Shown here piece by piece: positions 33,254-39,607 of a DNA stretch of 45,808 nucleotides. Under the pieces are notes generated by a model. The model had not been told where the DNA came from and made no database searches. It saw only the letters and a program-made list of their open reading frames with translations. Source of the DNA: Melioribacteraceae bacterium (GTDB lineage Bacteria > Bacteroidota > Ignavibacteria > Ignavibacteriales > Melioribacteraceae); contig JALSTB010000112.1 in NCBI GenBank assembly GCA_026983955.1, positions 1 to 45,808 of the forward strand. The letters run 5' to 3'. The position numbers and the translations under genes are program-made. Position 1 is the stretch's first letter, and every line of letters starts with the position of its first letter.

Positions 33254-33280
33254 CGGCGCCTTTTGTGGCGCTATTTTTTT
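33254..33280 (+). terminator. Rho-independent terminator after the PorV-like gene
   Basis: GCGCC pairs with GGCGC around the loop TTTTGT, followed by TATTTTTTT. Confidence 0.8.
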
Positions 33281-33292
33281 AAATTGAGTGAT

Positions 33293-33823
33293 ATGAAACC
33301 AAAATCGTTATTATTAAAATTATTGTTCGTCATAATTTTGTCCGGCTGTTCGACTTCAAGATTTTCAAACTCTGCCGGTGAATTGTTAAGCGATGAATTT
33401 GCAACGGGCAATTCCGGTCTTACGGTAAGAATTCCCCGAGGTTGGTTTCAAGCATACGATAATGAAAAAAATGTTTTGGATCTCTGGATTGTAAGCGGGG
33501 ATTATTCCGCATCCATTCAATTTAAAACAATTAATTTTTTTGATGAAGTAAACAATCTTCATGAAGCCGTTAAAATCAGCAAAGCTGTTAACAAAATTTC
33601 GGATGGAAATAAAAGGCAGTTCCTTGATGAAAATAAAAACATTGACGGTTCCGCGGCATACAAAATTATTGATGACGGTTCGGTTGTTGCACGGGTTGTG
33701 GTTTTTCCGTGGAAAGGTAAATTTTACGAATGTACTGCCGGTTTTTTACCAGATTATTCCGGAGCAGGCAAAGAAAAAGTTTTTGAACTGCAAGATGAAG
33801 TATTGAAAAATTTAAAATATTAA
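33293..33823 (+). CDS. Small lipoprotein of unknown function
   Basis: A 176-residue protein with lipobox ILSGC and Cys19 as the likely anchor. The mature part contains LTVRIPRGWFQAYDNEKNVLD and WIVSGDYSASIQF, followed by a helix. It ends in an amphipathic segment (FLPDYSGAGKEKVFELQDEV). The fold resembles PsbP/DUF1795-like single-domain proteins but I cannot assign it with confidence. ATG 33293 was chosen over TTG 33263, which would add 10 residues ahead of the signal peptide and overlap the terminator. The gene lies just downstream of that terminator and upstream of the pseudogene. Confidence 0.75.
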   Translation: MKPKSLLLKLLFVIILSGCSTSRFSNSAGELLSDEFATGNSGLTVRIPRGWFQAYDNEKNVLDLWIVSGDYSASIQFKTINFFDEVNNLHEAVKISKAVNKISDGNKRQFLDENKNIDGSAAYKIIDDGSVVARVVVFPWKGKFYECTAGFLPDYSGAGKEKVFELQDEVLKNLKY

Positions 33824-33846: not shown

Positions 33847-34207
33847 ATGGTAATAAATTGTCTTGACGGAAGGACTCAAATTCCGGCTGTCGAATGGATG
33901 AGAAAGACTTATTGGGTTGAGTTTGTTGATACGATAAACGGGGACGGTCGGGATAAAATATTGGCGGAAAATTCCGGCGGAGCGCGGTAATAAACCGGCT
34001 TAAAATAAAAACCGAAATTTCCATTCGGGTACTTGCTTCAAAGGTTATTGCAATTACAGATCATTACGATTGTGTGGGGAACCCGGTTGACGGAGAAACT
34101 CATAAAAAGCAAATTTCCGAAGCGGTGCGAAATATAAAATCGGGGGATTGAGTGTTAAAGTTACAGGTTGGTGGGATGAAAATTGGCAAGTGCACAGGTT
34201 AGTGTAG
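33847..34207 (+). pseudogene. Frameshifted carbonic-anhydrase-like (Pro_CA_2-type) gene remnant
   Basis: Three fragments in different frames together read as one small beta-carbonic-anhydrase-like protein of about 120 residues. Fragment 1 (33847-33990) gives VINCLDGRTQIPAVEW and DKILAENSGG, then a stop. Fragment 2 (33987-34151) gives VIAITDHYDCVGNPVD and QISEAVRNIKS, then a stop. Fragment 3 (about 34140-34207) gives GLSVKVTGWWDENWQVH, ending at TAG. The likely metal ligands remain: Cys in NCLDGR and His plus Cys in DHYDC. Each break needs one base to repair: near 33985-33988, and near the G run at 34142-34146. The gene ends one base before the convergent tetR stop. Sequencing or assembly error is an alternative to true decay. 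Confidence 0.72.
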
Positions 34208-34208
34208 T

Positions 34209-34793
34209 TTACTTTTTCACGCTTTCCCAAAATATTTTAGAATGTTCATCAATTTTTTTTAACACTTCTTTGTTCGAAGGGAAATCGAGATATTTCAAGC
34301 GTAGTAAAAATAAAAATCCGATAAAACTTTCCGCAAAAATTCCGGCATTTCCTTTCTTGAATAGTTTGTGTTTAATCAATTCGGTAAAAATCATTTTCGT
34401 TATATTTAAATACTCTTCCAAGTAGGAATTTAATGAAATTTCAACTTCACCGATTGCGTGGAACTGTTCGCTTAAAATCAGTTTTATTAACGCCCGTTCA
34501 TTTTCAGTTTGCCAAAATTCGAAAATCTTTCTTGCGAAATCCCTTATGAAAATCTCGGGTTCAGTGATTTTATCCAATAAATCGTCTGTTAAAATGACTT
34601 TTGCCACCGGTCCGGAACTCAATTTTTCGATAATGGCTTCGAGAATAGCTTGTTTTGATGAAAAATGATTGTAAATTCCGCTTTCTCTGATGCCCACTTC
34701 TTTAGCAATATCCCGGATCGACGAACCGGAGTAACCTTTGATAACAAATAAATCGAGTGCTTTTTGCAATATTTTTTCTTTTGTGTTTTTCAT
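34209..34793 (-). CDS. TetR/AcrR-family transcriptional regulator
   Basis: A 194-residue repressor-type regulator. The N-terminal helix-turn-helix is KILQKALDLFVIKGYSGSSI followed by RDIAKEVGIRESGIYNHFSSK, an excellent TetR match. The C-terminal all-helical ligand domain is unassigned. It is flanked by the pseudogene and the M1 peptidase, with no transporter or enzyme beside it to suggest a ligand. A sigma70-like promoter (34827-34855) and a palindrome (34816-34823) lie in its upstream region, suggesting autoregulation. Confidence 0.93.
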   Translation of the reverse strand: MKNTKEKILQKALDLFVIKGYSGSSIRDIAKEVGIRESGIYNHFSSKQAILEAIIEKLSSGPVAKVILTDDLLDKITEPEIFIRDFARKIFEFWQTENERALIKLILSEQFHAIGEVEISLNSYLEEYLNITKMIFTELIKHKLFKKGNAGIFAESFIGFLFLLRLKYLDFPSNKEVLKKIDEHSKIFWESVKK

Positions 34794-36987: not shown

Positions 36988-37407
36988 TTAATATTCTTCG
37001 TTTTTGTTTTTCGCGCAAAGCTCTATCAACACACCATGTGTGGATTTCGGATGAAGAAATGCAATTTCCAATCCTTCCGCGCCTTTGCGGGGAGTTTTAT
37101 CGATTAAATCGACGCCTTTATCTTCCGCTACTTTAAGAGCCGCTTGAACGTCATCCGTATTGAAAGCAATATGATGCACTCCTTCACCACGCTTTTCAAT
37201 GAATTTGGCAACTGGACTATCGGCGGAAGTGGCTTCAAGCAATTCTATTTTTGTTTTACCAACCATAAAAAAAGCGGTTTTAACTTTTTGATCTTGAACT
37301 TCTTCTATGGTATAACAATTAAACCCTAACACTTCTTCATAAAATTTAATTGCTTCATCCAAATTTTTTACCGCAATACCAATGTGCTCAATATGTGAAA
37401 TATTCAT
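36988..37407 (-). CDS. mce: Methylmalonyl-CoA epimerase
   Basis: A 139-residue VOC-fold enzyme that interconverts (S)- and (R)-methylmalonyl-CoA for the adjacent mutase. It begins ISHIEHIGIAVKNLDEAIKF and continues with KIELLEATSADSPVAKFIEK. GEGVHHIAFNTDDVQAAL supplies a metal-ligand His pair, and HPKSTHGVLIELC ends the domain. A longer frame from 37491 overlaps the mutase gene and adds residues absent from the family. ATG 37407 has AAGGGAA upstream and lies 10 bases after the mutase stop, so the two are one operon. Confidence 0.95.
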   Translation of the reverse strand: MNISHIEHIGIAVKNLDEAIKFYEEVLGFNCYTIEEVQDQKVKTAFFMVGKTKIELLEATSADSPVAKFIEKRGEGVHHIAFNTDDVQAALKVAEDKGVDLIDKTPRKGAEGLEIAFLHPKSTHGVLIELCAKNKNEEY

Positions 37408-37417
37408 TTTATTTCCC

Positions 37418-39094
37418 TTATAATTTAACATTATCGTGATATTCCCCGAAAACATCGCGCATTGCGTTTGAAATTTCACCAATACTTGCATACACTTTTA
37501 CCGCTTCGATAATGTAAGGCATTAAATTTTCCGTGCCTTCAGCGGCTTTCCGTAAAGCATGCAATTTATTTTCGACTTCAGTGTTATCACGTTCGCTTTT
37601 AATTTTTCTTAAAAATTTAATTTGTTCATCTTGAACCTTTTCGTCGATTTTCAACACATCCGAATAATGTTCTTCGGGTTCAATATATTCGTTTACCCCA
37701 ACAACTATTCTTTCCTTGTTTTCCAATTCTTGATTGTATTTATAAGCGGCTTTTTGGATTTCCTGTTGAACGTAACCGTTTTCAATTGCGTTAATCATTC
37801 CACCCATTGATTCGATTTTTTTCAAATAATCATTGGCTTCTTCTTCAATTTGGTTAGTTAAAGATTCCACGTAATACGAACCGGCTAACGGATCGATTGT
37901 ATTTGCCAGACCGCTTTCGTGTGCGACGATTTGCTGTGTGCGCAAAGCAATTTTAACCGATTTCTCGGTCGGCAATGCAAGTGCCTCGTCTTTGGAATTG
38001 GTGTGAAGACTTTGCGTGCCGCCCAATACAGCGGCTATGGTTTGTATTGTAACTCTGATTATGTTATTATCGACTTGCTGAGCCGTAAGCGCCGACCCGG
38101 CAGTTTGTGTATGGAAACGCATCATCATCGAGCGTTCTTTTTTTGCGTTAAACCGCTCCTTCATAATACGCGCCCACATTCTTCTTGCGGCTCTGAATTT
38201 TGCAACTTCTTCCAGCAAATCGTTATGTGCATTAAAGAAAAACGAAAGTCTGCCGGCAAATTGGTCAACGTCCAAACCTGCGTTTAACGCCGCTTTTACA
38301 TATTCGATACCGTCAGCAAGTGTAAAACCGACTTCTTGAGCCGCGGTTGAGCCGGCTTCCCTGATATGGTAACCTGAAATTGAGATGGTATTCCACGTGG
38401 GGACTTCTTTTGCACAATATTCGAATATATTTGTGATCAATCGCATCGATGGTTTCGGTGGATAAATGTATGTTCCGCGCGCAATGTATTCTTTTAAGAT
38501 ATCGTTTTGGATTGTTCCGCGAATTGCATTTTTCGGAACACCTTGTTTTTCTGCAACAACGATATACATCGCAAGCAGAATTGCAGCCGGCGCATTAATA
38601 GTCATCGAAGTTGAAACTTTGTCAAGCGGTATTTTATCGAAAAGTATTTCCATGTCAGCCAGAGTATCGATTGCCACACCTACTTTCCCAACTTCCCCAA
38701 AAGCCATCGGGTCGTCACTGTCGTAACCGATTTGTGTGGGAAGATCAAATGCAACGGAAAGTCCGCTTTGCCCTTGTGACAATAAGTATTTATATCGTTC
38801 GTTCGATTCTTTCGCAGTTCCGAAACCGGCATACTGGCGCATTGTCCATAATCTTCCTCTGTACATCGTCGGCTGAATCCCGCGGGTGTATGGGAACTGT
38901 CCCGGAAAATTCAAATCCCGCAAGTAATCCGTTTTCTCCAAATCTACCGGGGAATATAAAGCTTTGACCGCCTTAAACGATTGGGTTGTGAATTCTTTTC
39001 TTCGTTCGGGATGTTTTTCAATTGCTTTTTTGTATGTGGTGCTTGCCCACTCGTTTTGTGCGGATTGTATTCTTTCTGTTTTATCCATCTTCAT
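37418..39094 (-). CDS. Methylmalonyl-CoA mutase, catalytic (large) subunit
   Basis: A 558-residue enzyme subunit that converts (R)-methylmalonyl-CoA to succinyl-CoA with coenzyme B12. The TIM-barrel substrate motif is [20 protein letters not shown], with the Tyr/Arg pattern of methylmalonyl- rather than isobutyryl-CoA mutases. [19 protein letters not shown] and [17 protein letters not shown] follow. There is no C-terminal B12-binding domain (no DxHxxG motif), so this is the split type and a separate small subunit of about 140 residues must be encoded elsewhere. It is followed by the epimerase gene after 10 bases. Confidence 0.93.
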
Positions 39095-39197
39095 TGGAAT
39101 TTATATTAAACTTAACTTCCAAATTAAAAATAATATTCTTATGAATAAACCCAAAAAACAATAATTATCGTATAACAAATGAAAAATTTTTCTTTAC

Positions 39198-39226
39198 TTG
39201 ACAAATAAAAAACATTAACATATTTT
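39198..39226 (+). promoter_or_regulatory. Sigma70-like promoter of tRNA-Asn
   Basis: TTGACA (39198-39203), a 17-base spacer and TATTTT (39221-39226). The tRNA begins 38 bases after the -10 element. Confidence 0.75.
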
Positions 39227-39264
39227 ACAGTCCTTGAAATTTCTCTTTTAGTTTTTTTACATAT

Positions 39265-39336
<72 letters not shown>

Positions 39337-39344
39337 CAATATTT

Positions 39345-39370
39345 ACCCCAATGCTGAGTTGGGGTTTTTT
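39345..39370 (+). terminator. Rho-independent terminator of tRNA-Asn
   Basis: ACCCCAA (39345-39351) pairs with TTGGGGT (39359-39365), followed by a T run. Confidence 0.9.
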
Positions 39371-39572
39371 GTTTAATAGAAATTATACGTCTGTAATTTT
39401 AATTGAAAAACTCTTTCCCGCCTCAAATTTTGCAGGGTATTATCTGCTCCGGTAAAGTACTGAATTGCTCAATACCAATTGAAAAAGAATTAACGTGCCG
39501 GAACGCTTTGGATACAAAATTTTATTTACAAATCAATGTGATTTAATCCCGCATAATTTTTTACCTTTTTTG

Positions 39573-39578
39573 TATATT
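39573..39578 (+). promoter_or_regulatory. Candidate promoter element before the amylase gene
   Basis: TTGTATATTCT, with core TATATT at 39573-39578, resembles the TTGTATATTTG elements found before mfd and the DUF1684 gene. It is 30 bases before the amylase start. No partner element is evident. Confidence 0.35.
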
Positions 39579-39607
39579 CTAACTGTCAGCAAAAAAGGAT
39601 GGTAGCC

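Follow-up and report, generated by a model that had tools for sequence, protein, structure and literature searches.

The stretch of DNA that we analysed (45,808 bp of contig JALSTB010000112.1 from an uncultured Melioribacteraceae bacterium, hereafter the window) carries, between positions 33847 and 34207 of the plus strand, what is probably an ordinary true pseudogene of a small beta-carbonic-anhydrase-like Pro_CA_2 protein, decayed after a probable horizontal gain. The region consists of three plus-strand fragments, each read one frame back from the preceding one. Fragment 1 (33847 to approximately 33984; MVINCLDGR...AENSGGA) is an ORF of 47 amino acids starting at the ATG at 33847 and bears a C-x-D-x-R motif (C5, D7, R9). 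At the first break (33978 to 33996) the frame changes by -1 beside GCGCGG, and the original frame runs into TAATAA immediately afterwards. Fragment 2 (33984 to 34148; AVINRLKIKTEIS...AITDHYDCVGNPVDGETHKKQISEAVRNIKSGD) bears an H-x-x-C motif (H72, C75) and meets a TGA stop directly past the second break (34138 to 34153), where the frame steps back near 34142-34147 at a run of five G. Fragment 3 (34139 to 34207; GGLSVKVTGWWDENWQVHRLV) spans about 34139-34204 and is closed by a TAG at 34205-34207. Both breaks thus shift reading back by one base (-1, equivalent to +2) at short repeats, no nonsense substitutions occur inside the fragments, and the joined chain comprises 118 residues. Verification of frames and coordinates confirmed the original prediction of a gene with two frameshifts, as well as its claim that this gene fills the 385-base gap before tetR: the joined region occupies the whole 385-bp interval from the end of an intact lipoprotein-like gene (33263 to 33823, plus strand) to the last base, at 34209, of an intact convergent TetR-family regulator gene (34209 to 34793, minus strand; PF00440).

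Two other features of the window were recorded during annotation. The largest gap between predicted genes (39095-39598, 504 bp) holds a tRNA-Asn(GTT) gene at 39265-39337, inside which a spurious 58-aa ORF starts at 39279. A glyoxalase-like ORF on the minus strand (36988-37491) shares 74 bp (37418-37491) with the methylmalonyl-CoA mutase gene, probably because the mechanically called ORF starts too early, a later ATG likely being the true start.

Sequence similarity identifies the region as a degenerate copy descended from the Pro_CA_2 family (PF20393), as had been proposed. The joined chain matches the Pfam profile at 111.9 bits (E 3e-32) over positions 8-123 of 125, and fragments 1 (49.5 bits, E 6e-13) and 2 (46.6 bits, E 5e-12) each pass the curated cut-off of 30 bits singly, as does the joined chain; fragment 3 alone has no Pfam match. 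To control for chance matches, we built a profile from 82 relatives and used it to score every six-frame fragment of 18 or more residues in the window (1481 in total). Fragments 1, 2 and 3 ranked first, second and third (E 2e-16, 4e-16 and 0.11, the last at 9.2 bits) ahead of a next-best fragment at E 3, and aligned in order to adjoining profile positions (9-50, 54-105 and 108-126), a joint ranking that goes far beyond chance. The chain aligns with the family over its whole length, keeping the C-x-D-x-R motif, Q11, P13, D28, the H-x-x-C motif, NP and both tryptophans of the WVDENW block. All five residues of the predicted metal-ligand motifs (C5, D7, R9, H72 and C75) are therefore in place, as first reported. 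The nearest intact members are found in Candidatus Kryptonium thompsonii and other Kryptonia, at about 50% identity.

Classical beta-carbonic anhydrases (PF00484, Pro_CA) have a zinc motif of the same style, C-x-D-x-R ... H-x-x-C. Despite this likeness, a search of the joined chain against PF00484, which had been suggested as a check, gave no match at E values up to 1. A PDB sequence search with the family profile returned no trustworthy match, the best carbonic anhydrase entry (1g5c) having a non-significant E of 0.34, and we found no literature on PF20393. Pfam describes the family as 'Putative carbonic anhydrase', and this activity is only putative. Weak PDB matches to nucleotidyltransferases (E 0.004 and above) were dismissed as the first metal motif is not in common.

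The chain departs from the family at several sites that its members rarely change. Instead of the single open frame of about 120 to 130 codons of Pro_CA_2 genes, which is uninterrupted in relatives, the window gene is broken twice. The N-terminal FATA strand, the TEPGP motif and a conserved His that precedes the second metal motif, all 85-99% conserved among the 82 relatives, are replaced or missing, and in fragment 3 the GLWVDENW block is one residue short. Specifically, the near-universal N-terminal Phe (99%) is missing, the likewise near-universal N-terminal Thr is lost (T10M, at a 95% column), four residues of TEPGP (T, E, P and P, conserved at 99, 90, 85 and 93%, respectively) are replaced, and the His present in 81 of the 82 relatives (99%) is Leu. 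We looked by eye for a compensating indel pair behind the altered TEPGP block, and no frame restores the motif. Overall, of the 34 columns with at least 85% conservation, the chain departs from consensus at 10 (median 2 and maximum 6 in the relatives), and 13 of its residues occur nowhere else in the alignment at the same position (median 3 in the relatives). It is also the lowest scorer against the 82-relative profile, at 132 bits compared with at least 171 bits for the five next-lowest rows, noting that the relatives themselves trained this profile, and no other end branch in the tree is as long as its own (0.95; median 0.34, next highest 0.69). Because the relatives were collected with motif patterns, conservation at the corresponding columns is slightly overestimated; the values for TEPGP, the lost His and the N-terminal Phe are unaffected. 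The reading of a decaying gene is thus borne out by the conserved-column departures and the end branch, with the qualification that part of the divergence may predate decay since no close relative was found.

The locus was compared with that of related genomes. A sister genome (G001) keeps the order phosphoglycerate mutase, PorV-like protein, lipoprotein and tetR, with syntenic lipoprotein and a TetR orthologue 61% identical to that of the window, and has only 79 bp between lipoprotein and tetR (L032, 3053-3131) with no trace of a Pro_CA_2 gene. In two further genomes (G002, L033 1807-2757; G003, L034 4202-5149) a threonine-dehydratase-like gene adjoins tetR, so that the position beside tetR varies among congeners. 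None of the three congeners has a match to the joined chain, related genomes have matches in 2 of 57 cases at 35-36% identity, and 8 of 245 genomes of the class, including the window's own, have a match to the family. Scanning genome contigs with the single protein recovered no relatives; an alignment-based scan recovered 571, none of them close, and the tree gives the window chain no well-supported place. Plasmids, phages and viral contigs yielded no relative and hence no vehicle of transfer. By base composition the region is no outlier: its GC of 0.42 corresponds to the 75th percentile within the window, and its pooled GC3 of 0.40, a rough estimate, falls inside the range of the window's genes. 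A distant Pro_CA_2-matching protein (40 bits) occurs in the same taxonomic family (L013 1501-1890; G019:C5:210052-210441); its motif set differs (TCMDFR ... DHRDCGAY) and it possibly belongs to a separate Pro_CA_2 subfamily.

The simplest reading of these observations is horizontal gain followed by decay. A single gene would probably have been inserted by horizontal transfer between the lipoprotein-like gene and the convergent tetR gene, a step suggested by the patchy distribution of the family and by the gene's absence from the syntenic position in the sister genome. Constraint would subsequently have been lost, with erosion of the start region, changes at conserved residues and deletion of a single GLWVDENW residue, and two small indels would have broken the frame. 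The family match, the two breaks, the losses at conserved sites and the empty syntenic site are observed directly; we infer both this direction of change and that the ancestor was active as a carbonic anhydrase, the latter through a family whose own function is putative. Vertical inheritance with many losses is a conceivable substitute for horizontal gain. The original prediction offered recent loss, sequencing error or recoding, and loss is the best supported of the three. "Recent" needs softening, as the chain has also lost conserved residues and its N-terminus, which goes beyond two fresh indels and shows that constraint has been relaxed for some time. Conversely, the intact metal-ligand motifs and the absence of nonsense substitutions speak against old decay, as a very old pseudogene would show more damage. 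As a counter-argument to a pseudogene the intact motifs are weak, since random placement of 10 losses over the 34 columns spares all five motif residues with a probability of 0.15 and the four presumed ligands with a probability of 0.23; retention of the ligands is for the same reason weak evidence of function.

The most serious competitor to a pseudogene is an intact but diverged gene in which sequencing or assembly introduced one of the breaks or both, which we regard as unlikely. The G run and CG repeat at the breaks are typical error spots, the assembly is a 190-contig draft, the ligands are intact, and the fragments follow one another closely along the profile, with few positions missing between them. 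Such errors can explain the frameshifts, but not the losses at conserved sites, namely the absent start region, the deleted GLWVDENW residue and the substitutions at 10 of 34 columns, so that mere sequencing error is disfavoured by a joined chain unlike an ordinary family member. In addition, the contig's other predicted genes that were checked with Pfam gave no sign of a second split gene, so the error rate is not high in general. A base-calling error at one or both breaks on top of decay is possible. That a protein is made nonetheless, either as full-length Pro_CA_2 through two -1 recodings or as a functional diverged protein with artefactual breaks and an active site without TEPGP, appears improbable. 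It is still harder to credit that fragment 1 or 2 alone remains in use as a small protein or regulatory sequence; fragment 1 does retain its ATG-started ORF, but neither fragment holds the whole metal site and no relatives of fragment length were seen. Programmed recoding, in which two -1 shifts yield one full-length protein, is the least credible option: both breaks require the same -1 direction and the second lies at GGGGG, but inspection by eye showed no X XXY YYZ slippery heptamer in frame at either site, RNA structure downstream does not exceed that of shuffled controls (z -0.98 and +1.54), and 0 of 80 recovered relatives are interrupted within the match, whereas a programmed -1 frameshift would combine heptamer and downstream structure conserved in relatives. 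A protein of 118 residues that depended on two inefficient shifts would, moreover, hardly be produced at all.

A functional enzyme is therefore not expected from this degenerate Pro_CA_2 copy. We found no PF00484 (beta) or PF00194 (alpha) gene elsewhere in this genome or in the three congeners, and the host lineage evidently lives without a beta- or alpha-class carbonic anhydrase. The pseudogene explains an otherwise empty intergenic gap and means little beyond annotation, being another probable case of a Pro_CA_2 gene that was sporadically transferred and failed to persist.
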